Assembly: GCF_900141895.1 (NCBI RefSeq)
Contig: NZ_FQYT01000013.1
Span: 1 to 64,000, forward strand
Length of the DNA: 64,000 nt
Direction of reading: 5' to 3'
From: Parasporobacterium paucivorans DSM 15970
GTDB taxonomy: Bacteria; Bacillota; Clostridia; Lachnospirales; Lachnospiraceae
The notes beneath the pieces were generated by a model. It searched no databases, had not been told where the DNA came from, and saw only the letters and a list, made by a program, of their open reading frames with translations. Positions 2,807-42,882 of the stretch are shown here, piece after piece. How positions within the stretch are numbered: position 1 is the stretch's first letter; each line of letters opens with the position of its first letter. The position numbers and the translations under genes were made by a program.

Positions 2807-3961
2807 ATGAATATAAAAGCAAACGTACTAGTGGTGGGAAATTCAGGGGTTGGGAAGAGTACCTTGATAAATACGGTATTTGATTTTGAGCGGGCTGCAG
2901 TCGGGGAAGGTTCCACAATCACCAGAAAAATGGCAATTTACGAAACCGGGAAAACGAATTTTCGTTTGATTGACACCAGAGGCCTTGAATATGGATGGCG
3001 GGCACAAATTCAGACTAAGAATGCCTTAAGCAAGTGGTCCAAGGATAGCGTGAAGAAAAATGAAGAAGAAAAATACATCCATATTATATGGTATTGTATA
3101 GACGCCACTTCGAAGCGGGTTTTTTCGAAAAATCTGGATTTATTAAAAAATGTGGCCAGGTTATGGAAAAATATACCAATAATCATTGTCCTGACAAAAT
3201 CCTATTCCGAGAAGGAATTGGAAGAAAATTTCAGGATGGTAAAGATAAGCCTTGAAAAATATAAAACTCAGCATCTGCACATAGTTGGAATCATTCCAGT
3301 TGTGGCGAAGCCCTTTGCGGTCAATGAAGAAATTATTATTCCCCCAGTCGGGGTAGACCATTTGATTGAAAGAACAAACGAAATCATACCTGAAGCTTTT
3401 AGAATAAATGAAAAATCAGTCAGGGAACTGAGTCTGCGGATTAAACGAACAAATGCGAATTCACTTACAATTGCAGCTACTTCAGGGGCAGCCGTGATCG
3501 GAGCTGTGCCGATACCTGTTGCCGACTCGCTGATACTTATGCCACTGCAAAGCGGTCTGGTTATCGGAATATCAAAAATATATGGATTGAACAAAAAGGA
3601 TAGAAATTCCAACAACATAACAAATGCCATAATAAGCAGCGGAGCAGTTACTCTTGGGGCCAGGACTGTCATATCCGGATTGAAAGCAATTCCGGGTTTG
3701 AATATTGCAGCTGCGTTGATAAATTCAGTTGTAGCGGCAGTCATTACTGCGGTGATAGGAGAGATAACCATCAAGATTATGGAAAAAATGCAGAAAGGAG
3801 AAGTACAACCGGAGAATCTGGAATGGATTAGAAAATTTGCAGAGAGCGAATTTCTTAGCAGGACCGGAAAATATGTCGGGAAGTTAGGAAAGAGTTTAGA
3901 GGGAAAAGACCCAAAGCATGTAGGTAAGGTGATTTCTGAAATATTCAAGAAGGGGGTCTGA
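2807..3961 (+). CDS. Era-like GTPase with C-terminal DUF697-like hydrophobic region
   Basis: The 384-residue product has a P-loop GNSGVGKST at 11-19, a G3 motif DTRG at 56-59 and a G4-like TKS at 130-132 in place of the usual NKxD. After residue 205 it turns into a glycine- and alanine-rich hydrophobic region resembling the DUF697/YcjF-like part of membrane-associated GTPases. The exact role is unknown; related proteins bind membranes or ribosomes. A -10 box TATAAT (2730-2735) stands upstream with only a weak -35. The stop codon is supplied by the palindrome at 3952, and the last residues (KKGV) mirror those of the RAYT (EKGV) for the same reason. Confidence 0.8.
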   Translation: MNIKANVLVVGNSGVGKSTLINTVFDFERAAVGEGSTITRKMAIYETGKTNFRLIDTRGLEYGWRAQIQTKNALSKWSKDSVKKNEEEKYIHIIWYCIDATSKRVFSKNLDLLKNVARLWKNIPIIIVLTKSYSEKELEENFRMVKISLEKYKTQHLHIVGIIPVVAKPFAVNEEIIIPPVGVDHLIERTNEIIPEAFRINEKSVRELSLRIKRTNANSLTIAATSGAAVIGAVPIPVADSLILMPLQSGLVIGISKIYGLNKKDRNSNNITNAIISSGAVTLGARTVISGLKAIPGLNIAAALINSVVAAVITAVIGEITIKIMEKMQKGEVQPENLEWIRKFAESEFLSRTGKYVGKLGKSLEGKDPKHVGKVISEIFKKGV

Positions 3962-3966
3962 CCCCC
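3952..3966 (-). repeat. REP-like palindrome, TCTGA orientation, overlapping the GTPase stop
   Basis: GGGGGTCTGACCCCC is a perfect copy. Its central TGA (3959-3961) is the GTPase stop codon. Confidence 0.92.
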
Positions 3967-5524: not shown

Positions 5525-7084
5525 ATGCGGTTGAACTTAACAATTTTAGAAGAGGAATTGTCAAAGAAGTATACAGTAAAGAGTTTCTTGCATGAAATTG
5601 ATCCCATGCGCTATATCGGCGTTCAGGCACTGGAAGATGACATAATACCTCTGGAACAGCACATCCTGTTAATCGGAGCAGGCTGCCGGAACGCGGCAGT
5701 ATTAAGGGGGGGATACGGGGTTATCAGCCTTGGGGAACCAGACAGCCGGATTATCCGGAAAAACGAGTGTCTGATTCTGTCCGAAGATATCCCGCTGGTA
5801 AAGCTTTTTTCGGAAATACAGAGAATCTACTTCAAATATACCATTTGGGCGGAATCCTTACATGAGGCGGTCAGCAAGGGAGCGGGGCTACAGGAGTTAT
5901 GCGATTTGAGTGCGGAAATATTTGAAAACCCCATTCTTGTCTATGACAACAATCTCTTTCTGCTGGCAATCAGCAACGATGCACAGGGACTTCCGGTGTG
6001 GGATTACGATGAAAAAAGCGGGAAGCGGACACTGCCCCTTGAGGTATTGAATGACTTTAAACTGAACGAGGAATTTCAGCAGACGATGCTGACTACAGGA
6101 GCAAAAATGTGCTCCGAAAACGTCATCGGTTATAAGGTCCTGTATCATAATTTCTGGGTGAATAATTTTTATGCCGGCCGGATATGTATTAACGAACTGA
6201 AGCGCGAAATAACCCCAGGAGAATATTCGCTGCTGGAATATTTCTCCAATATTTTGGAGCCGGTACTTCAATACAGCAAGGTTCGCCAGAACGAAAGAAT
6301 CAAGGCCTTCGAGCAATCCTTGAAGGATATGCTTTCTGGAAATGCAGTCAATGAAATGCTGTTGCTTGCTGGTCTGACTGATATCGGGTGGGGACGTAAT
6401 GACCGTCATTTTTATATCAGAATTATTACGGAAGACCGGGATTCCAAAACTTTTTCGGCAAACTACACCTGCAACCAGCTGGAGAATCATTTTCCACACA
6501 GCTTTGTATTTCCTTATGACCAATCTATCCTGATGATTATCAATCTGGAAAAGAACCGAAAGGAACTTTCCATTCTTTTGTCGGAAATCAAGATGTTCTT
6601 GAGGGAAGGACTTTTTAGAGCCGGAATCAGCCGGGTATGCAGTGATTTCTTCAGACTCCGGGAATATTTTTTTCAGACTGCCCTTGCGGTGCAGGTCGGC
6701 GAAAAAAGGGACCCGATGTATTGGTATTATTATTTTGGGGACTATACCATTCCTGCAATGTTCCATGAAATGACCCGTAACATATCTTCGGACATATATT
6801 GCGAGAGGGGGTTGTTTTCCCTCCTGAAATATGATGAAGAACATGGGACCCAGCTTTATGAGACCCTCAGGACATACCTTGACTGCAACATGAATATCAC
6901 ACATACTTCCGAGAAAATGTTTATACACAGGACGACCCTGATGTACCGGCTGGAGCGCATCAGTTCGATGGTAGGCGCGGATATTAAGAACCCGGAGGAA
7001 CGGTTCCGGATTCTGCTTTCATATCACTTGCTGGATTGGACCAATGGGGGTCAGACCCCCAAGTTGACCCCACAGTCAAAATAA
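5525..7084 (+). CDS. PucR-family transcriptional regulator
   Basis: The 519-residue protein ends in the PucR-type helix-turn-helix domain, about residues 455-505, with NITHTSEKMFIHRTTLMYRL. The long N-terminal part probably senses a ligand. It is a paralogue of the protein at 56789-58312, sharing blocks such as FENPI, GRICxNEL and REITxGxY. It probably controls the divergent UroD-family gene. The C-terminus is odd: the paralogue stops soon after the LLxxN region, whereas here the frame runs through the palindrome at 7046 and adds about a dozen extra residues. The start follows TTGGAGG at good spacing. Confidence 0.85.
   Translation: MRLNLTILEEELSKKYTVKSFLHEIDPMRYIGVQALEDDIIPLEQHILLIGAGCRNAAVLRGGYGVISLGEPDSRIIRKNECLILSEDIPLVKLFSEIQRIYFKYTIWAESLHEAVSKGAGLQELCDLSAEIFENPILVYDNNLFLLAISNDAQGLPVWDYDEKSGKRTLPLEVLNDFKLNEEFQQTMLTTGAKMCSENVIGYKVLYHNFWVNNFYAGRICINELKREITPGEYSLLEYFSNILEPVLQYSKVRQNERIKAFEQSLKDMLSGNAVNEMLLLAGLTDIGWGRNDRHFYIRIITEDRDSKTFSANYTCNQLENHFPHSFVFPYDQSILMIINLEKNRKELSILLSEIKMFLREGLFRAGISRVCSDFFRLREYFFQTALAVQVGEKRDPMYWYYYFGDYTIPAMFHEMTRNISSDIYCERGLFSLLKYDEEHGTQLYETLRTYLDCNMNITHTSEKMFIHRTTLMYRLERISSMVGADIKNPEERFRILLSYHLLDWTNGGQTPKLTPQSK
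7046..7060 (+). repeat. REP-like palindrome, TCAGA orientation, inside the PucR gene 3' end
   Basis: GGGGGTCAGACCCCC is perfect and encodes part of the C-terminal extension (from about residue 507) of the regulator at 5525-7084. Confidence 0.92.
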
Positions 7085-33769: not shown

Positions 33770-34330
33770 ATGAAAAGTAGGAAAAGTAGGAAAATCAGGT
33801 TGGGTATAGCTTTTATTGCCGCGATGGCACTGTTGCTTCCGGTATTGGCTGTCCCGGTATTTGCCGAAGAAATCTGCGTTGATCCAAATTGTGGAGAATA
33901 CTGCTGCTGTATAACGAATGAAACGGCGACGGGCGCCAACAGCTGGATTGACGGAACAGGAACCCGGATACTGCCAAAGGGAAACTGGTTCATGTACAAT
34001 TATTATAATGGAAGCAGGAGCACCTACCCGCTTCAGGCTGGCAATCCAGTTGGTGGACAGTGCCTGGTCGGAATATTCACGGTTGTAAGTCTTGGTGGCA
34101 ATATGTATAGGATTGATTACAATATGGCCCAGGGAATCGAAATGAATGGGGAAGTTTACAATGTCAGTATCATAGATGAACATTTAGGTATCAGTAATAC
34201 AATGAATTTCACTGGAGCTCCGGGAATTGATGACAATAAGGACTTTGGAGTACCATTCTATGATGCAGACGGGGCATTCTATATTTTCGCACACTTTGGA
34301 TTAGCGCTTGAGTGGGCCTGGTGGCTGTAA
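33770..34330 (+). CDS. secreted Cys-rich hypothetical protein, 186 aa
   Basis: A signal peptide (basic start, hydrophobic core, PVFAEE cleavage near residue 32) leads into a mature part with a cysteine cluster, ICVDPNCGEYCCC, then a glycine- and aromatic-rich domain ending FGLALEWAWWL. The family is not recognised. GAGGTG precedes the start and a strong bidirectional terminator follows, so it is monocistronic. It could be a small exported enzyme inhibitor or surface protein; nothing decides this. Confidence 0.7.
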   Translation: MKSRKSRKIRLGIAFIAAMALLLPVLAVPVFAEEICVDPNCGEYCCCITNETATGANSWIDGTGTRILPKGNWFMYNYYNGSRSTYPLQAGNPVGGQCLVGIFTVVSLGGNMYRIDYNMAQGIEMNGEVYNVSIIDEHLGISNTMNFTGAPGIDDNKDFGVPFYDADGAFYIFAHFGLALEWAWWL

Positions 34331-34371
34331 TTTTCAGAAGTCTAAACTCTTAAAATCTTTAATAGATAAAT

Positions 34372-34423
34372 AAAAAGATATCCGCCGGCTGTCGTTTCTT
34401 TAACAGCCGGCGGATATCTTTTT
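34372..34423. terminator. bidirectional terminator
   Basis: A 21-bp perfect stem (34372-34392 with 34403-34423) has A/T runs at both ends. It serves the plus gene at 33770 and the minus sortase operon. Confidence 0.92.
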
Positions 34424-34425
34424 AT

Positions 34426-35268
34426 TTATTTAACAGACTTCTTCATCGAAGCCGTCACCCCTATCAGGAATGCCGAAACGAGAAGCCATAAGAAGCCGAG
34501 TATAACAAAAACCTTTATCCCGCTGGAGAGATATCCTGAGACGAAATGATAGAAGTATTCAGGTTCAAGGTTGATCCTCTTATAGAAACCGGTCAGAAGA
34601 ACCAGCCCTGGAACGATAATGCACAGGAGTCCCGCAGATAAAGTGCTGTAGGTCAGGAAGCGCACAGCCTTATGCTTGAAATGATAAAGCCGGATCAGGA
34701 ACAAGGAAATCAGGATGGAAATCAGGATACTTACCGGGATGCCGATCATCATAACCGGAGCATATATATTCCTTGCCTGCACCAGGTATGTCAGAAAAGG
34801 GACTTTTATTTCATCGGTATAATCAGCTCCTGTCTGTTTTGCAAATTCATCCAGGTTGGCCAGCTGCTCCTGCGTTAAGGAAATACTTTGGCTTTGCATA
34901 TATGATAGGACATTGCTTTTAAGCGTTTCCGATACAGCAGTTGAGTCTGCCTCGTATTCGCGTCCTGCCAGTATGGCTTCAGCGTAAGCCTTAGTATCCA
35001 GGGCAACCATAGTAAGCGGGTAAATATCCGTAAGCGTCTCCAATGGAATTCCCGCCGGAATCGAAGCTGATTCCAGATTGTCGTAAAGCACGGTCTGCAG
35101 GCTTTTGAAATAGGTGCTGTCCAGCCGTTTTAAGACTGCATTGTCATGCAGAAAGCCTGCATAGATTCCTATTAAGCATGTCATGAGCGTCAGGACAAGT
35201 GTCAGGATGAAAGACATGATCAGGCTGATGATGTATCTCGTTGATGAGTTTTTTATTAAGCTCCGCAT
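34426..35268 (-). CDS. membrane protein of the sortase operon
   Basis: The 280-residue protein has an N-terminal membrane segment (about 10-38), an extracytoplasmic part of about 125 residues with many Gln/Ser/Leu, and three further membrane segments. Its family is not recognised. It follows the sortase gene by nine bases in the same operon, ahead of a strong terminator. It may help the sortase or its substrate. Confidence 0.7.
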   Translation of the reverse strand: MRSLIKNSSTRYIISLIMSFILTLVLTLMTCLIGIYAGFLHDNAVLKRLDSTYFKSLQTVLYDNLESASIPAGIPLETLTDIYPLTMVALDTKAYAEAILAGREYEADSTAVSETLKSNVLSYMQSQSISLTQEQLANLDEFAKQTGADYTDEIKVPFLTYLVQARNIYAPVMMIGIPVSILISILISLFLIRLYHFKHKAVRFLTYSTLSAGLLCIIVPGLVLLTGFYKRINLEPEYFYHFVSGYLSSGIKVFVILGFLWLLVSAFLIGVTASMKKSVK

Positions 35269-35277
35269 TCTGGTCTC

Positions 35278-35943
35278 CTATTCGATATCCGGTCCGGATA
35301 AACGTTTTGCATACACGAATAAACGGTCCTGTTTGGAGCCTGTCAGGCTGTCAAAAGGATAACAGGTGTACAGGATAAGCTGTTCAGTTTCGGCCGATAA
35401 ATCGTATGCGGAGGTATCTTTATAGTTGTGGACAGCTGCCTCCGTCACTTCATAAATATATTCTCCGTAGTTGGTCGAGTAGTTTATCCTGTCCCCGGGC
35501 TGGATGTACTGCAATGGCAGAAAGAAAGTGGTGTTATGACCGCCAACAAGAATCGTCCTGTTGAAACCGGGCAGGAAGCTTCCTGAAAACTGCCCTGCGC
35601 CCACCCGAAGTATGGCGTTGTCATCGCCCATATATACAGGAACATCAAGTCCGATCCTCTCGCAGCGGATGTTCCCGTAATGGGTTCCATAGTCGGGAAT
35701 CTGGATGCTGCTCAACGGAATGGTTTGCTGGTCAGAAAGAACCGCTCCGGTATAGATGGAATTCAAATCAGATGAGAAATCCGGAACTTCATCAGCCACC
35801 ATCATTCCTGCGACCGACAAGCCGGTATCTATAAGTGGTTTTGCGGCAAAATATATAAAGGCATATCCTGCTAAAGTAAAAAATAATGGCAGATAAAAAT
35901 ATGCCATTATTTTACTGAGATTTTTTTTCATTATCTTTTTCAC
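35278..35943 (-). CDS. class D sortase
   Basis: About 221 residues. An N-terminal membrane anchor is followed by the sortase barrel with catalytic His in LVGGHNTTFF, Cys in LYTCYPFD and Arg in KQDRLFVYAKR. The spacing and TCYPF fit class D. The start is placed at GTG 35943, after AAAGGAA; ATG 35931 is possible. Class D sortases attach proteins bearing LPxTA/G-like signals to the cell wall. It lies between its probable substrate gene and a membrane protein. Confidence 0.9.
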   Translation of the reverse strand: MKKIMKKNLSKIMAYFYLPLFFTLAGYAFIYFAAKPLIDTGLSVAGMMVADEVPDFSSDLNSIYTGAVLSDQQTIPLSSIQIPDYGTHYGNIRCERIGLDVPVYMGDDNAILRVGAGQFSGSFLPGFNRTILVGGHNTTFFLPLQYIQPGDRINYSTNYGEYIYEVTEAAVHNYKDTSAYDLSAETEQLILYTCYPFDSLTGSKQDRLFVYAKRLSGPDIE

Positions 35944-35953
35944 AATATTCCTT

Positions 35954-36529
35954 TTATGCTGTTTTAACAAAAAGTTTCTTTTTATTGGCAACTGCAATTC
36001 CTGCGATGGCCGCCACGGCTATGCCGGACAGGAGAATGGCCGTCGAATTTGTGGAAGCACCGGTCGCTTTGATGATGTCGGAATTTGAAAGAGTGGCTAC
36101 CACAGCGCCGGAAGAATTTTTAATGGTTAAAATATCGCTGGATGTATTGTAGGTCACGGAGTAATCCACAACTGCAGCAGCGGCAGACGTTTTATCAACA
36201 ATCTGTGTTTTGGCAGAGTTTGACAGCTGGCTGAGTTGAGACACGCCTTCAGCCTTTACGATGGCGGCTGCTGCATCGATTTGTGCATTTATACTAGAAG
36301 CCTCAGTTGCAGTGATGTCTACACCGTCTTTCATCATTTCTGTTTCGGCCATGTTGATATATTCAGCCGGAATCGCTATGTTGGTCCCATTCACGCTGAT
36401 TCCTGCCTTTAATTTTGTCAGTATGCTCTGTTCTGCATCATTGATTCCGGATGCTGCTGAAACGTTCACAGGCATGGCAATCAATAATAGTGTAGCGGTT
36501 AACAGTGCAAATAATTTCTCTTTTTTCAT
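35954..36529 (-). CDS. secreted protein, probable sortase substrate
   Basis: The 191-residue protein has a signal peptide (cleavage near VSAA), an Ala/Ile-rich body with INDAEQSILTKLKAGISVNG, and a C-terminus that looks like a sorting signal: IIKATGAST, then a hydrophobic stretch and a KKK tail. The signal lacks the canonical LPxTG, but position next to a class D sortase makes a variant signal likely. It is the first gene of the operon, with a strong promoter and GGAGGG site. Confidence 0.8.
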   Translation of the reverse strand: MKKEKLFALLTATLLLIAMPVNVSAASGINDAEQSILTKLKAGISVNGTNIAIPAEYINMAETEMMKDGVDITATEASSINAQIDAAAAIVKAEGVSQLSQLSNSAKTQIVDKTSAAAAVVDYSVTYNTSSDILTIKNSSGAVVATLSNSDIIKATGASTNSTAILLSGIAVAAIAGIAVANKKKLFVKTA

Positions 36530-36576
36530 TTTATACCCTCCGTTTTATGTTCTCATTTAAAGGTTATATTTTTCTC

Positions 36577-36605
36577 ATTATAGAAGTAATGTATCGTAAT
36601 GTCAA
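36577..36605 (-). promoter_or_regulatory. promoter of the sortase operon
   Basis: On the minus strand TTGACA (36605-36600), a 17-base spacer and TATAAT (36582-36577) are both consensus. Confidence 0.9.
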
Positions 36606-36642
36606 TAAAATCAAGCATTTGATGTCAGCAGTGATTCATTTC

Positions 36643-36671
36643 TTGACGAATGGATTGATTTTGCCTATGAT
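36643..36671 (+). promoter_or_regulatory. promoter of the pRiA4b ORF-3/DUF1887 operon
   Basis: TTGACG (36643-36648), a 17-base spacer and TATGAT (36666-36671) lead to a short leader and AAGGATGG before ATG 36706. It is divergent from the sortase promoter, 37 bases away. Confidence 0.75.
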
Positions 36672-36705
36672 AAAAAAGTTAGAAAATAAAAAGGATGGAT
36701 CTGTC

Positions 36706-37392
36706 ATGAAAGCGTATATCGTGAAAATTGAAATGAAGGGCTCAGAGCCTCTGGTATGGCGTCGGATCATCATGCCGGCCGGAGCCACATACAGAAGGCT
36801 ACATGATATCATACAGGATGTGACGAATTTTCGGGGAGGATATCCCAATGAAAATTATCATTTGTATGCATTTGTGCTGAGCAAGGAAAATATAAGGGTG
36901 ACTAATGATGAGGATGCGTATGAGGGTCACAAGCATTTTTTGAAAAACAAAAGATTCTACAAGGAAAGGCTGGAGACAATTCCGGATAATCTGGAGGAAT
37001 TTGAGCGGGCCTACCAGGAAAGTCTGAAGGTTGTCATACGTAAGCCAAGTGGGTTGAAAATAGATGGGTATCTGGAGAGACAGGGGGAGATTCTTTATGA
37101 GTATGATTTTGGGGCAGGATGGCAGCTTGTGGTCCGACTGGAGGAGACCGTGGAAGATTACCCCTATGGATACCCGATGCTTCTGGATGGGGAAGGGACA
37201 GCCCCGCCGGAGGATGTAGGTGGATTGGAGGGATTCTATGAATTTCTGCGCATTTACCATGATGAGAGCCATCCGCAGCATGAAAGTACAAAAGTCTGGG
37301 CCACGAAAATGAATTTTCGTGAATATAACAAAGAATGGATTAATTATTTGCTGAAATCGATAAAATATAAAAAAAAGAAGAAAGGTGCCTGA
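36706..37392 (+). CDS. plasmid pRiA4b ORF-3-like protein
   Basis: About 228 residues. It begins MKAYIVKIEMKG and continues SEPLVWRRIIMPAGATYRRL, has LHDIIQDVTNF and ends the domain with EYDFGAGWQLVVRLEE and FYEFLRIYHD, the recognised pRiA4b ORF-3 pattern. The function of this widespread family is unknown. Start 36706 follows AAGGATGG. Its TGA stop is part of GGTGCCTGACCCC, a relative of the palindrome family. It is five bases ahead of a CARF-nuclease gene, so the two are probably one unit. Confidence 0.85.
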   Translation: MKAYIVKIEMKGSEPLVWRRIIMPAGATYRRLHDIIQDVTNFRGGYPNENYHLYAFVLSKENIRVTNDEDAYEGHKHFLKNKRFYKERLETIPDNLEEFERAYQESLKVVIRKPSGLKIDGYLERQGEILYEYDFGAGWQLVVRLEETVEDYPYGYPMLLDGEGTAPPEDVGGLEGFYEFLRIYHDESHPQHESTKVWATKMNFREYNKEWINYLLKSIKYKKKKKGA

Positions 37393-37396
37393 CCCC
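37384..37396 (-). repeat. variant of the REP-like motif at a gene junction
   Basis: GGTGCCTGACCCC supplies the stop codon (37390-37392) of the upstream gene and ends one base before the start codon region of the next. It is an imperfect relative of GGGGGTCTGACCCCC. Confidence 0.55.
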
Positions 37397-37397
37397 A

Positions 37398-38564
37398 ATG
37401 AAGACCTTGATAAAACTATATTCTTCATCCCCAATTCGGAATGTATATGCTGCACTTTTGTTTGAACCGGAACAGATTGTATTTTTAGGCGGTAAGGAAA
37501 TGCGGGAAAAACAGCTGAAAGTTTTCTTCAGGGAAAAGCTTCCTTCTGTGAAAATGGAATTCTATACAGTGGATTTACAGAATCTGGAGAATATTTCGCA
37601 GGTTTTGGAAGAAATTCTCAAAAAATATCCGGAAAGTGCTGTTGAACTTTGTGGAGGTGGAAATCTTCTGTACATTGCTGTTGGAGAGCTTATTGGTGAA
37701 CAAAGAATCCCAGCTTTTTTTTATGACATTAAAAATGCCATGATAAGAAATGTATCAAATTTTAAAATTACAGAAGAAATGAATAATTTAAAAGCTCCAA
37801 AATTACAACTGGAGGATTTTGTCCTGATGGCGGGAGGCTCTCTGGAAGGATATGGACATATCGGAATCAACAAGCTGTCTCCGGAGATGCAGCTGGATAT
37901 AGAATTTTTATGGAATATCTTTTTTGACAATCAGGAAAGATGGAGGAGGCTGATTGATTACCTTCAGAATAAAAGAAACAGCCTTCTGACTGATCCGTCT
38001 CCATTTTCTTTGCATGAACGGATGCAGTATAATGATTTCATTGAGGATAAGCTGTCCACGCTGGCTTCCTCTCCAGGCAAAATAATCCGGGATCTGAACA
38101 TAACCCAGAAGCAGATAAATTTTTCCTATAAAAATGATGTCATAAAAAAATGCCTGAATGATAAGGGCCTTATCCTGGAATTGTATCTTTTTCTGATTGC
38201 GATGCGGATGGATTTTTTTGATGAGGTGCGGATAAGTACGATTATCGATTGGAATGGAATTGGGAATGAAGAGAATAACATAAGCAATGAGCTGGACGTG
38301 ACCCTGGTGAAAGGCACCCGGCCGATATTTATTTCCTGTAAGCTTAAAATAATTACAGTAGAAGATTTGAACGAAATTGATATGCTCGTCAAACGGTTTG
38401 GCGGAGAATGCGGCATTGGAGTAGTCGCCACGGTTGGGACCTTTTCCACAGATTTCCCGACTGTTTACAGGAGGGCCAGGGAAATGGGAATCCATGTAAT
38501 CGAATATGATGATTTTAAATTCAAAAGAGTAGAAAAAATACTCGGGGGTCTGACCCCCGAGTAA
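37398..38564 (+). CDS. DUF1887 family protein, Card1/Can2-like CARF-nuclease
   Basis: The 388-residue protein has an N-terminal CARF-like Rossmann domain with VELCGGGNLLYIAVGEL, equivalent to the TGGTK motif of DUF1887 proteins. A middle helical/winged-helix part (about 160-260) and a PD-(D/E)xK nuclease core follow, with GLILELYLF, NELDV (Asp) and IFISCK (Lys). Card1 and Can2 are cyclic oligoadenylate-activated nucleases of type III CRISPR systems. No CRISPR-Cas genes are in the window, so this is an orphan copy, and the signal it senses is unknown. Its last codons are read through the palindrome at 38540, giving GGLTPE at the end. Confidence 0.8.
   Translation: MKTLIKLYSSSPIRNVYAALLFEPEQIVFLGGKEMREKQLKVFFREKLPSVKMEFYTVDLQNLENISQVLEEILKKYPESAVELCGGGNLLYIAVGELIGEQRIPAFFYDIKNAMIRNVSNFKITEEMNNLKAPKLQLEDFVLMAGGSLEGYGHIGINKLSPEMQLDIEFLWNIFFDNQERWRRLIDYLQNKRNSLLTDPSPFSLHERMQYNDFIEDKLSTLASSPGKIIRDLNITQKQINFSYKNDVIKKCLNDKGLILELYLFLIAMRMDFFDEVRISTIIDWNGIGNEENNISNELDVTLVKGTRPIFISCKLKIITVEDLNEIDMLVKRFGGECGIGVVATVGTFSTDFPTVYRRAREMGIHVIEYDDFKFKRVEKILGGLTPE
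38540..38562 (-). repeat. REP-like palindrome, TCTGA orientation, extended, at the DUF1887 3' end
   Basis: ACTCGGGGGTC and GACCCCCGAGT form an extended perfect inverted repeat around GGGGGTCTGACCCCC (38544-38558). Here the coding frame passes through it and stops at TAA 38562-38564. Confidence 0.92.
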
Positions 38565-38572
38565 CTGAGTAA

Positions 38573-39631
38573 TTATCTGCTGTATAATTCACGGCTCAAA
38601 ACATAGAATAATTCATAGGAATCGAAGGATCTGTCAGGATTCGTTTCGATATAGTATGGAATAAATCGTCCGGTTTTGCCGACCGTATTTACAAGATCGG
38701 TTATCAGTTTCCGGAGGTCCTCATCCGGCAGGGCAGGGTCGCCGACCATAATGGAGACCTGAGCCATTTTATCGCCATAATTTTCCATGATACTAAGTTT
38801 ATTGTTCGCATTGTCCTGGCCTTCCCACAAATCAAATCCGGCTTCTATGAAAAGTGGAATCATTGGTTCGACATTTCCACAGCAGTGATAGTTCACATAC
38901 AGACCCATATCGTGGGCAGCGGCGTTCATTCTCTGGTAGTGAGGCATCATGACTTCCCGGAATGTCTCATTGGACATAAATGGGCTTCTCTGTGTTCCCA
39001 TATCATCATGGAAAGTAATCATATCTGCCCCATAAACTTCTTTTGCAATCTTTATCAGATCGATGTGGAAGTCAGTCAACTTGGTATAGAATGCCTCGAG
39101 AGCTTCCTGCTCTTCAAGCAGATAGCAGAAAGTATCTCCAAAAGAAGTGAGGTCGGCGGTTCTTTCAAAAAGACCGTTGACGATCATGAAAGTGGTGAAA
39201 CGGTCCGGATCGATAGCATCTTTATAATTTTCTTCGTAATCCTTCTTCCAGTCGATAGTATTTAAATCCGGCCAGACAAGCTCTTTCTCCCACTCCGTGA
39301 TATCAGAAAGCCGTCTTGTGTTTGGTCTGACCATGGCAGCATTTGATTTTGGCTCAAATGCCCAGTCAATACCGAACCAGTCAATTCCACCATGGTTTCT
39401 GGCAAATGCATCCGGCATGACCTCAGGCTGGACAATGTTGGAGTCGATGGGAAGTACAGGCATCCAACAGGGCTTTTTATTCTGCATCAATAATTGAAAA
39501 TTCTCTTTTGGGGTGATCGGGGTGTTGAATTTTCTGGCGTGAACCGGCGGGAATCCGTATGGGCTGGGAACATCTTTATACATCCCCATATCTTTTAGTT
39601 CTTCTTCTTTGTTAAATGGATTGCAACTCAT
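38573..39631 (-). CDS. uroporphyrinogen decarboxylase (URO-D) family protein
   Basis: About 352 residues. The body has TPKENFQLLMQ, MITFHDDMGTQRSPFMS and NYHCCGNVEPMIPLFIEAG, with His and Cys in the places used for zinc or methyl transfer in methyltransferase-type members. It is a distant relative of the URO-D genes at 4053 and 55633 and stands without its own PucR gene. Start 39631 follows AGGAGGT. It may act in methyl transfer together with the downstream dehydrogenase, but this is guesswork. Confidence 0.8.
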   Translation of the reverse strand: MSCNPFNKEEELKDMGMYKDVPSPYGFPPVHARKFNTPITPKENFQLLMQNKKPCWMPVLPIDSNIVQPEVMPDAFARNHGGIDWFGIDWAFEPKSNAAMVRPNTRRLSDITEWEKELVWPDLNTIDWKKDYEENYKDAIDPDRFTTFMIVNGLFERTADLTSFGDTFCYLLEEQEALEAFYTKLTDFHIDLIKIAKEVYGADMITFHDDMGTQRSPFMSNETFREVMMPHYQRMNAAAHDMGLYVNYHCCGNVEPMIPLFIEAGFDLWEGQDNANNKLSIMENYGDKMAQVSIMVGDPALPDEDLRKLITDLVNTVGKTGRFIPYYIETNPDRSFDSYELFYVLSRELYSR

Positions 39632-39740
39632 AAATAACCTCCTAAAAATCTGAATTTGTATCTCCATTTTATAACCATAAGTGAATTAACGAAAGTTCTT
39701 ATTAGTCTTATAACCATTCCATAACCGAATGCAAGACGGT

Positions 39741-40694
39741 TTAAAAAAATCTGTTCTCCAGTTCTTTGCATTCTGCGTAAGCCTTTAGATTTCTGTACAG
39801 TGTTTCCTTCATCCTTCCGAATGCATTATCCGAACCGGACATTGTATGGGGATATAGAAAAACATTTTCCAGGTCCCAGAGAGGGCTGTTTATGGGCAGG
39901 GGTTCTTTCTCATATACGTCCAGAACGGCTGCAAGCAGCAGCTTGTTTTTAAGTGCGTCAACCAGCGCCCCTTCATCGCAGACCGCCCCGCGGCCCACGT
40001 TGACAAAGACACTGCCCGGTTTCATGCTGCGGAAAAAATCCTTTCCGGCAAGGTGAAAGGAGTCATCCGACAAGGGAAGCGTAAGAATTACTATATCCAC
40101 TTGGGGCAGAAAATCCCCCGCATGATCAATGGAATGGACTTCATCAAAACAGTCGGAAGGCAGTGGATGGCGGTTGAAGCCGATCACTTTGGCTCCGAAA
40201 GCCTGCAGTCTTTTTGCAATCTGGAATCCGAGGTCGCCGGTTCCCAGAATAGCTGCTGTTTTACCATAGATTTCGATAAGGTCCTGTTTTCGCCTGAAAA
40301 CACGATCTTTTTTCTGAGAATCAAACACCCGGCTCTGTTTATAAACGTTGAGAATACCGGAGAGCACGAATTCGGAAATCGGTATGCCATATACACCCCG
40401 CATATTGGCCAGGATGATTTTTCGCTCCTTGATCTTATCCGCAGGAAAATGGTCAAAGCCTGCAGCCAGTACCTGGATAAACTTCAGGTTTTTGAAATCA
40501 TCAATATTCTCATGCTGGAAGATGCCTACCGTGGCAAGTACTTCGCAGGTATAGGCTTCCTCCGGCAGGGAAAGTCCCTCGGTCGGATGCAGGACTACGT
40601 CATAGCCCAGAGCCGCTATGCGGTTTATATAATCGTCGTCATATTCCCACATATTATAGGAATGCTGTTTGAATAATAAAAGCTTTATATCCAT
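39741..40694 (-). CDS. D-2-hydroxyacid dehydrogenase family protein
   Basis: The 317-residue NAD-dependent enzyme has ILGTGDLGFQIAKRLQ as nucleotide-binding site, NVGRGAVCDEGALVDAL, DVYEKEPLP with the catalytic Glu and YPHTMSG with the catalytic His. The substrate-binding Arg is likely in MRGVYG. It reduces a 2-keto acid or the reverse; the specific acid is not clear. It is divergent from a two-component system at 40827. Confidence 0.88.
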   Translation of the reverse strand: MDIKLLLFKQHSYNMWEYDDDYINRIAALGYDVVLHPTEGLSLPEEAYTCEVLATVGIFQHENIDDFKNLKFIQVLAAGFDHFPADKIKERKIILANMRGVYGIPISEFVLSGILNVYKQSRVFDSQKKDRVFRRKQDLIEIYGKTAAILGTGDLGFQIAKRLQAFGAKVIGFNRHPLPSDCFDEVHSIDHAGDFLPQVDIVILTLPLSDDSFHLAGKDFFRSMKPGSVFVNVGRGAVCDEGALVDALKNKLLLAAVLDVYEKEPLPINSPLWDLENVFLYPHTMSGSDNAFGRMKETLYRNLKAYAECKELENRFF

Positions 40695-40826
40695 ATGAAA
40701 AACTCCTCCGTCCAGACATTAGTTACAATGATTTTAACATATGGAACTGTGAATTGTAAATTTATGACATAAGTTATATAATATACTAAATTATTTCGAT
40801 GGATGGGTGGCATTAGGAGGTATAAA

Positions 40827-41516
40827 GTGGCAAGAGTCTTGATTGTTGATGATGAACCGATGATTCGTGAAGTAATACGTGAATATGCGGAACTGGAGGG
40901 ACATGAAGTCAGGGAAGCGGAAAGTGGACTGAAGGCTATTGAATGCTGCAGGACAGAGGATTTTGATGCCATAATAATGGATGTCATGATGCCGGGGATT
41001 GATGGATTGACGGCGTACGAGAAGATTAAAAAGACCAATTCGATTCCGGTACTTATACTCTCTGCAAAAGGGGAAGAGCATGACAAGCTGTATGGATTCA
41101 GTCTTGGAATAGATGATTACGTGGTCAAACCGTTTTCGCCCAAAGAACTGATGGCTCGTCTTGGCGTAATCCTGTCTAGAAATCGGGGACGACAGAGCAT
41201 ATCAGATGGAGATACTTCTAAGTGCCGCCTGCAGTTCGAGGGGATGAAAATTGACGGAAAGGCATATAATGTATACATTGACGGTGTTAAAGCTGCAATA
41301 ACGATGAGGGAATTCGATTTGCTTTATTTTCTGGCATCCCATCCCAATATCGTTTTTTCGAGGCAGCAGCTGCTGGATAACGTCTGGGGCTATGACTACA
41401 TGGGAGACGACAGGACGGTGGATACCCATGTCAAAATGCTCCGCCATTCCATTGGAGAATACAGGAAATATATCATCACGGCGAGAGGGGTAGGTTATAA
41501 GTTTGAAGTTCTTTGA
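40827..41516 (+). CDS. OmpR-family response regulator
   Basis: About 229 residues. The receiver domain has VDDEP near the N-terminus, phosphoacceptor Asp in AIIMDVMMPG, Ser/Thr and Lys in LILSAKGE and VVKPFSP. The winged-helix domain contains DDRTVDTHVKMLR and ARGVGYKFE. Start is GTG 40827, seven bases after AGGAGGT. It overlaps the kinase gene by 14 bases. The target genes are unknown. Confidence 0.92.
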   Translation: MARVLIVDDEPMIREVIREYAELEGHEVREAESGLKAIECCRTEDFDAIIMDVMMPGIDGLTAYEKIKKTNSIPVLILSAKGEEHDKLYGFSLGIDDYVVKPFSPKELMARLGVILSRNRGRQSISDGDTSKCRLQFEGMKIDGKAYNVYIDGVKAAITMREFDLLYFLASHPNIVFSRQQLLDNVWGYDYMGDDRTVDTHVKMLRHSIGEYRKYIITARGVGYKFEVL

Positions 41517-42882
41517 TTTTAAGGGAATACGTTTCAGATTATATCTATTGTTTATCGGATTTGCGGTAATTATTGTCGGAGTGGTATTCTTCATTCAACT
41601 TTTCAATATAAAGCAAAGGGTAAGACAGGATACTCTGGATTCGTTACGGAACATAACATGGAATATTTCAGCCACATATGGTACGGATGCCTATTACAAG
41701 GCAATGCGGGCTGCAGCTTATTCGGGCGAGTATCAGATTAAGACCATGACAGAGGATGGAGAGGAATTGGACTCAGTCGGAGTCGCCGGACTGGATGCCC
41801 GATGGCCGTTAAAAATTCTAAAAATGGATAATCTGATCGAACAGCTAAAAAACTCCAATGGTTATATAGACTATGTCATAGAAGACGGAAACACGGACTG
41901 GGTCGTGCATGCGCAGGTCCTGGCCAGCTGGGAAGGAAAACGGGAGATTATTTTTGTTGCAAAATCCACAGACCATGAAAAAGCTGTAATCAATAATGTA
42001 CAGCTGCAGCTTCTGGAGATATCCCTCATTGTATTTGCATTCGCCTTGCTGATGTCGTGGTTTCTGGCCAGGCAGTTCTTGAAACCGATAGTTATAATTA
42101 CGAATAGTGCAAAAAAACTGGCCAACGGAGATTACAGCGTGTCATTTCCACAAAATACGTATGCAGAAATCAATCTTTTGTCAGAGACAATGGAAATGGC
42201 GGCACGCGAATTTGCCAATTACGAACAGAACAGAAGGGATTTGATAGCCAACGTTTCTCATGATATGCGGACTCCGCTGACAATGATTAAAGCTTATGCG
42301 GAAATGATATTGAACATTTCTGGTGATAATCAGGAAAAAAGGGACAGGCACCTGGGAATTATCATTGAGCAGACAGATAAACTTTCCATTTTTGTAAACG
42401 CATCCCTGAATCTGGCCAAATTGCAGTCAAAAGAAACGAAACTTCAGTTACAGAAATTCTCACTTGGGAGGCTGGTAAATGAAGTTATAGAACACTTGAA
42501 AGTGATTTATGGGAAAGATGCGGTGTTTGAAACGAAGATTTTTGAAAAATATATGATTAAGGCGGATAAACCCATGATTGAACAGGTGTTGTTCAATGTA
42601 ATAATTAATGCGGTTAAATATTCCGGTGGGCCAATTTATATCAATGTAAGGTGTGAAGGCAAACATATATTATTTGAAGTCATAGACCATGGCGTCGGCA
42701 TCGCCGGGGAAGACCTGCCCAATATCTGGATCAAATACTATAAGATAAATCCCGGTTCAAAAGATTTTGGAAGCACGGGGGTCGGCTTGTCCATCGTCAA
42801 GGAAATCCTGGATCAGCATAATTTCGAATATGGGGTTGACAGTGAGCCGGGTAAGGGCAGCAGGTTCTGGTTTCGAGCGTGA
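41503..42882 (+). CDS. sensor histidine kinase
   Basis: The 459-residue kinase has two membrane segments (about 13-33 and 167-187) enclosing an extracytoplasmic sensor, a HAMP segment, the HisKA box VSHDMRTPLTMIKAYAE and an ATPase domain with NAVKYSGG, DHGVGIAGEDLPNIW and STGVGLSIVKEI. It starts at TTG 41503 after AGGGGTAGG and is translationally coupled to the response regulator. Its stimulus cannot be read from the sequence. Confidence 0.92.
   Translation: MKFFDFKGIRFRLYLLFIGFAVIIVGVVFFIQLFNIKQRVRQDTLDSLRNITWNISATYGTDAYYKAMRAAAYSGEYQIKTMTEDGEELDSVGVAGLDARWPLKILKMDNLIEQLKNSNGYIDYVIEDGNTDWVVHAQVLASWEGKREIIFVAKSTDHEKAVINNVQLQLLEISLIVFAFALLMSWFLARQFLKPIVIITNSAKKLANGDYSVSFPQNTYAEINLLSETMEMAAREFANYEQNRRDLIANVSHDMRTPLTMIKAYAEMILNISGDNQEKRDRHLGIIIEQTDKLSIFVNASLNLAKLQSKETKLQLQKFSLGRLVNEVIEHLKVIYGKDAVFETKIFEKYMIKADKPMIEQVLFNVIINAVKYSGGPIYINVRCEGKHILFEVIDHGVGIAGEDLPNIWIKYYKINPGSKDFGSTGVGLSIVKEILDQHNFEYGVDSEPGKGSRFWFRA

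Follow-up and report, generated by a model that had tools for sequence, protein, structure and literature searches.

An orphan CARF protein with a PD-(D/E)xK fold and an S-C-K motif beside a pRiA4b ORF-3-like gene of Parasporobacterium paucivorans

The second gene of a closely spaced pair in Parasporobacterium paucivorans DSM 15970 (gene 2) encodes a protein with the full-length fold of the CARF nucleases, in which a serine occupies the place of the catalytic Glu of the E-x-K motif. The relatives of this protein carry a complementary Glu on the next helix, no type III genes were found in the genome at the sensitivity used, and the pairing with the preceding gene (gene 1) was not found a second time. 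We hold, with slightly more than even confidence, that gene 2 encodes a stand-alone CARF nuclease with its Glu relocated to E326, probably switched by something other than cA4 and independent of type III systems, and that gene 1 is an unrelated neighbour. The protein belongs to a clade of stand-alone DUF1887 proteins that is large in the Clostridia, and would most likely work as a homodimeric, CARF-gated and metal-dependent nuclease without type III CRISPR. The CARF dimer would sense a ligand and the nuclease cleft would then open, E261, E298, D300, K315 and E326 being the proposed catalytic set.

Positions refer to the window, that is, the whole stretch of 64,000 nucleotides that was analysed. 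Both genes of the preliminary description of this DNA are real open reading frames, and both lie on the + strand. The locus is made up as follows:

36643..36671, + strand: sigma-70-like promoter candidate 5' of gene 1 (TTGACG-17-TATGAT, 10/12 matches)
36706..37392, + strand: gene 1, pRiA4b ORF-3-like, 228 aa, from its PF07929 match
37384..37396, + strand: repeat unit GGTGCCTGACCCC, within which gene 1 has its stop codon
37398..38564, + strand: gene 2, orphan CARF + PD-(D/E)xK-fold protein (DUF1887 / VC1899 / Can2 fold), 388 aa
38539..38563, - strand: palindrome/hairpin of 25 bases followed by a T-run (TTTTTT) on the - strand; it encodes the gene 2 C-terminus GLTPE
38545-38557: palindrome GGGGTCTGACCCC, the core of that hairpin
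38573-39667, - strand: URO-D-type methyltransferase gene, convergent with gene 2

Fold and active site of the CARF protein

The gene 2 protein belongs to the PADLOC family CARF4--CARF_PDDEXK, which it matches over residues 1-373 of 388 (7.2e-41). Its score against Pfam CARF_Card1 was 20.6 bits, below the cut-off of 24.6, and the NCBIfam search gave nothing useful. The AlphaFold2 model, built with 59 sequences, reached a pLDDT of 93.0 and a pTM of 0.91, and its best structural matches were VC1899 (Z 31.1, 354 residues), Cdn1 (28.8), Can2 (28.1) and Card1 (25.1), all of them over almost the whole chain. A single chain thus carries an N-terminal CARF domain and a C-terminal PD-(D/E)xK fold, as in Can2 and Card1, and this CARF-nuclease fold without a type III locus places it among the orphan, VC1899-like DUF1887 proteins. 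The positions that matter for the pocket and the active site are these:

37653..37658, + strand: G86-G87, CARF pocket loop (CGGGN; TGGTK in Can2), by alignment
38178..38180, + strand: E261, a Glu conserved on a helix of the nuclease domain, by alignment
38289..38297, + strand: E298-L-D300, equivalent to Can2 E276/D278, by alignment and an excerpt of PMC7969007
38334..38342, + strand: S313-C-K315, where Can2 has E291-C-K293, by alignment
38364..38375, + strand: D323-L-N-E326, candidate relocated catalytic Glu, on the helix that follows the S-C-K strand in the model

The alignment of gene 2 with Can2 is gap-free from the E-L-D to the C-K motif, so K315 corresponds to K293 and S313 to E291. Gene 2 therefore has neither the D...E-x-K motif of Can2 and Card1 nor the E-C-K motif of the VC1899 type. 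The earlier view of a DUF1887 protein with a CARF-like domain and a PD-(D/E)xK core is borne out by the fold and the PADLOC match, but its third motif is S-C-K and not (D/E)-x-K.

This serine is a property of the whole clade. Among 107 aligned rows (L034 and L158 being the same gene), S313 is found in 106, D300 in all 107, and E261, E298 and K315 in 106 each. A separate draw of PF09002 proteins from the class, for which the best 30 of 34 matches were taken and 29 proved alignable (L183 gave no CARF ORF), has S-C-K in 29/29 and keeps the other active-site residues in 29/29. Altogether, Ser replaces the catalytic Glu in 135 of the 136 clostridial rows (107 + 29). All these 135 rows have a Glu on the next helix, which in the gene 2 model runs from 321 to 338 after the strand 308-315. 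It stands at position 326 in 120 rows and one turn before, at position 323, in the remaining 15; 7 of the 120 rows with E326, gene 2 included, have an acid at 323 as well. The six E-C-K members from other lineages (VC1899, Can2, 8bao, Cdn1, L194 and L195) have Lys at 326. Regarding the alternation between 323 and 326, Fisher's test gave 5.5e-15, but on a tree of 134 rows (the 136 minus L007 and L188) the trait is explained by 2 changes, so one or two events in evolution account for it, and the test value is not independent evidence.

As to the sampling, a protein of the gene 2 type was found in 32 of the 397 family genomes, own genome included, with gene 2 as query, and PF09002 in 33 of the 391 class genomes (34 matches), which is around 8% of the genomes in either case. 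The first scan of genome contigs, with the gene 2 protein alone as query, gave no match. The family search returned 33 matches, 3 of them without a locus, one of which (G266) was later added as L156; further loci came from named records, of which the best 80 of 187 relatives were used. With these there are 105 distinct CARF proteins, own included. Alignment A1 contains 23/29 family loci, and alignment A3 contains 23/29 family loci together with 35/80 named-record loci, L047 and L104 being left out; its 58 other rows are 21-31% identical to gene 2. Rows were chosen for their similarity to gene 2 or PF09002, and the named records are the best 80 of 187, so E-C-K members from this class may be under-sampled. 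The rows describe the clade of gene 2 and are no census of DUF1887.

We suggest that in this clade, where Ser replaces the Glu of E-x-K, a Glu on the next helix, E326 in gene 2, probably does the work of the lost one, by analogy with the PD..K..E site of restriction enzymes of the Cfr10I/NgoMIV type. Excerpts of two papers (PMC4652773, PMC6344858) describe this rearranged PD..K..E order in the CCGG-family restriction enzymes, with the Glu or Asp on the helix that follows the Lys strand, and report that this acid can itself shift by about one turn, as proposed for BsaWI. Our literature search found no paper on the S-C-K variant.

Nevertheless, a Ser throughout the clade may just as well point to a catalysis that is weakened or lost, and gene 2 would then be a catalytically weak or dead derivative of Can2 that has kept its CARF or nucleic-acid-binding part. 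Mutating the E and K of E-x-K together inactivated TsuCan2, and VC1899, an orphan with a pocket unlike that of Can2, itself has weak RNase activity that is not regulated by cA4 (both from excerpts of PMC7969007). Moreover, one relative has lost the site: the gene at 1471-2697 of L007 reads K-C-T and S-K-I-D, and to judge from these residues its protein is likely catalytically dead. However, this relative looks different from the clade, where nearly all of the 107 rows, and the whole of the second set, retain the other active-site residues; as the 58 other rows of A3 share only 21-31% identity with gene 2, this argues for selection on the site. We therefore regard a weak or dead enzyme as unlikely, though deserving some weight, and prefer an active site with a relocated Glu.

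Type III genes and the CARF pocket

The own genome assembly has 52 contigs and is 97.5% complete. The Cas10 palm profile PF22335 gave five matches in it, one above the cut-off. The three best were rejected as signs of a hidden type III system because they are GGDEF proteins, with FGGEEF, LGGEEF and FGGDEF motifs, and the remaining two (L005 and L006) were weaker and had internal stops. The sources of cyclic nucleotides looked for were Cas10 and SMODS; the SMODS cyclase had no match in the genome, and neither had the RAMP proteins (PF03787). With Cas10 and RAMP genes not found by these profiles and with a fold matching VC1899 and Card1, the preliminary description was right to call gene 2 an orphan Card1-like CARF-nuclease, and the search for a Cas10 elsewhere in the genome that it recommended has come out in the same sense.

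The other carriers point in the same direction. There was no RAMP match at E 0.001 in 30 of the 32 carrier genomes (the own one and 29 of the 31 others). The 2/32 positive carriers (G266 and G372) compare with 46/397 for the family as a whole, those 2 included, so the carriers are not enriched for type III; among the PF09002 carriers 2/33 were positive (G730 and G890). In G372, G730 and G890 the CARF gene and the RAMPs are on different contigs. In G266, about 4.5 kb of contig C44 separate an S-C-K CARF gene (L156) from a Cas10 gene; RAMPs and a possible SAVED protein below the Pfam cut-off are encoded there as well, and this CARF gene may be functionally linked to the type III locus.

According to an excerpt of PMC7969007, can2 is typically associated with type III systems, and an excerpt of PMC4324140 reports a DUF1887 gene among CRISPR genes in Syntrophomonas wolfei. 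Gene 2 could be an ordinary Can2/Card1 effector of a type III system that was missed in the assembly, fragmented and incomplete as it is, or that acts in trans, and L156, on a contig with Cas10 and RAMPs, would fit this. The scarcity of RAMP matches among the carriers, with no enrichment over the family, and the cA4 contacts, three of which differ by alignment, make this improbable.

Regarding these contacts, an excerpt of PMC7969007 gives Ser19, Thr42, Lys99 and Tyr118 as the conserved ones of Can2, and the corresponding positions of gene 2 are S9, G32, N89 and F108, so that 1/4 is kept and 3/4 differ, in an alignment whose low identity makes this no more than suggestive. Of the 107 clade rows, 94 have an acid (Asp or Glu) at position 89, the equivalent of Lys99. 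The PF09002 proteins, drawn separately, vary more at this position (acidic in 13/29, Arg or Lys in 8/29), so a changed pocket is likely for many members but need not extend to all. Although the glycine loop is kept, most of the cA4 contacts are, by alignment, lost, and the switch is probably other than cA4; gene 2 would respond to another ligand, or to no cyclic nucleotide.

As a separate observation, the plasmid pSBC2-5 of Caballeronia sp. SBC2 (L195, 7116-8909) encodes a 597-aa DUF1887 CARF protein with E-C-K. Its neighbours are FtsK/SpoIIIE, WXG100, VWA, PP2C phosphatase, kinase and AAA genes, and no CRISPR gene is annotated in that stretch, so this is a different stand-alone CARF setting.

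The gene pair and the palindromic repeat

Gene 1 belongs to PF07929 (PRiA4_ORF3), with 6.4e-41 and 140.4 bits against a curated cut-off of 26.6, and its fold matches MM3350 (PDB 2I1S; Foldseek E 2.5e-13). Only 5 bases separate its stop codon (TGA, 37390-37392) from the ATG of gene 2 at 37398, and co-transcription is therefore plausible. The likely start of gene 1 is the ATG at 36706; no gene starts at 36643, where the -35 box of a site resembling a promoter lies. Counting both strands, 11 such sites are present in 2.5 kb, where shuffled sequence gives 6.6 (sd 2.8), so the promoter candidate at 36643-36671 is weak evidence, not clearly above chance. Thus, of the two-gene operon with its own promoter proposed before, the operon remains plausible but the promoter is doubtful.

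On one side the pair is flanked, at 35278-36529 (-), by a class-D-like sortase gene that overlaps the gene of a possible LPXTG-type surface protein, whose anchor score is slightly below the cut-off; on the other side lies the - strand URO-D-type methyltransferase gene. None of the ten proteins scanned from 33770 to 42882 matched transposase or integrase families. The GC content of gene 1 is ordinary. Gene 2, at 0.39, is below the 0.441 (sd 0.020) of 37 other ORFs picked by hand, a weak hint that its origin was separate. A phage or plasmid origin of gene 2 was considered and discarded, tblastn giving no match in the phage or plasmid collection.

Of the 32 CARF-bearing family genomes, 5 have a PF07929 gene, and the own genome is the only one where it adjoins the CARF gene. 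A local PF07929-type profile made from gene 1 and seven relatives found no such neighbour in the flanks available for the other 104 distinct CARF loci; of the 112 loci, 103 have 1 kb or more of upstream sequence. Conversely, no CARF gene was seen beside the four close relatives of gene 1 (52-59% identity). The genus is represented in the collection by this one genome, so recurrence was checked outside the genus. We found no paper linking PF07929 and CARF, and none containing both 'pRiA4b' and 'CARF'.

To find any other conserved neighbour of the CARF clade, the ORFs within 4 kb were clustered. No group comprised more than 12 loci, and by eye these were mostly ordinary chromosomal genes; both flanks reach 5 kb in only 43/112 loci, which makes it a partial test. 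The same divergent neighbour of the CARF gene is present in 11 Lachnospiraceae records (L097, L106, L108, L109, L112, L115, L117, L118, L120, L121 and L123). They all fall into a single subclade of the tree, which is what vertical inheritance within it would give.

If up to 2 mismatches are allowed, the palindrome family to which the repeat belongs has 8 sites in the window, where 0.79 would be expected. Its core GGGGTCWGACCCC occurs in 32 places of the 2.44 Mb genome and in none of the reversed control. Copies in the window include those at 37384-37396, 38545-38557, 97-109, 1449-1461, 2368-2380, 3953-3965 and 7047-7059, several of them close to gene ends by eye, and genome-wide they are bunched on few contigs (C7, C8, C27, C31 and C46). 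Both genes do end in motifs of this family, as had been noticed: 37384-37396 holds the stop of gene 1 and 38545-38557 the end of gene 2. Gene 2 reads into the hairpin at 38539-38563, and its last residues come from it. Together with the T-run on the - strand, this hairpin can act as the terminator of the convergent gene at 38573-39667, which is the simplest reading of it.

The C-terminal tail of gene 1 is around 15 residues shorter than in its four relatives of 52-59% identity, which share a tail. The stop codon of gene 1 falls within a genome-wide repeat, at which a rearrangement may have removed the tail and placed gene 1 directly against gene 2. Two further observations concern this family. 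One close relative of gene 1, L160, lies just 3' of ORFs with HTH_Tnp_1 and integrase-core domains, and pRiA4_Orf3-like proteins have been described as cargo of the ISAzba1-group transposons (PMC3942029, in excerpt).

The preliminary description saw in the block what is expected of an acquired defence or signalling cassette; the two genes would then form a functional module, conserved as a pair, in which the gene 1 protein could be a sensor, an antidote or a source of signal. Their common strand, the 5-base gap and a possible shared promoter fit such a module, and conservation within the genus is possible, the genus being represented by the own genome alone. However, the absence of a PF07929 neighbour at 104 other CARF loci, of the adjacency in the 31 other carrier genomes and of a CARF gene beside the four close relatives of gene 1 speaks against it, as does the tail of gene 1 shortened at the repeat, and we consider it highly improbable. 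The preliminary description had proposed looking for the pair in other genomes, and would have given up the idea if the pair were confined to one strain. That is the situation in the genomes examined, which hold no second example (0/104 other CARF loci, 0/31 other carriers), and the ten proteins scanned between 33770 and 42882 gave no transposase or integrase match. The pair is very probably not a system, and gene 1 looks like an unrelated neighbour of gene 2, at most co-transcribed with it.

Significance and comparison with known systems

If active, the gene 2 protein could serve in defence or in a stress-induced growth arrest. Stand-alone CARF proteins raise the question of what activates them without Cas10, and an occurrence of around 8%, together with a single diagnostic motif and an exact prediction for mutants, makes this question testable. 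More broadly, and as a tentative proposal that we place clearly below an even chance, Clostridia may have CARF nucleases, forming a large clade and independent of CRISPR, whose site is rearranged to D..S-C-K..E and whose ligand is other than cA4, and which would thus respond to a new signalling pathway. As a caution for annotation, a Card1-like gene is not always a CRISPR effector, and a close gene pair is not always a module.

Among the known proteins, MM3350 (2I1S), a PF07929 member titled 'protein of unknown function', has the same fold as gene 1, which differs by an additional helical stretch in the middle of the protein. The likeness of the gene 2 clade to the CCGG-family enzymes (Cfr10I, NgoMIV and BsaWI) lies in the order of the motifs and the position on the helix. 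Can2 and Card1 (7BDV, 6WXW and 8Q3Z) share with gene 2 the CARF + PD-(D/E)xK chain, in both domain order and fold, whereas in gene 2 the Glu of E-x-K is replaced and no type III locus was found. Finally, VC1899 of Vibrio cholerae (DUF1887, PDB 1XMX), also an orphan CARF protein, has the full-length fold in common with gene 2 (Z 31.1), but combines E-C-K with a Lys at the 326 position, where gene 2 combines S-C-K with E326.
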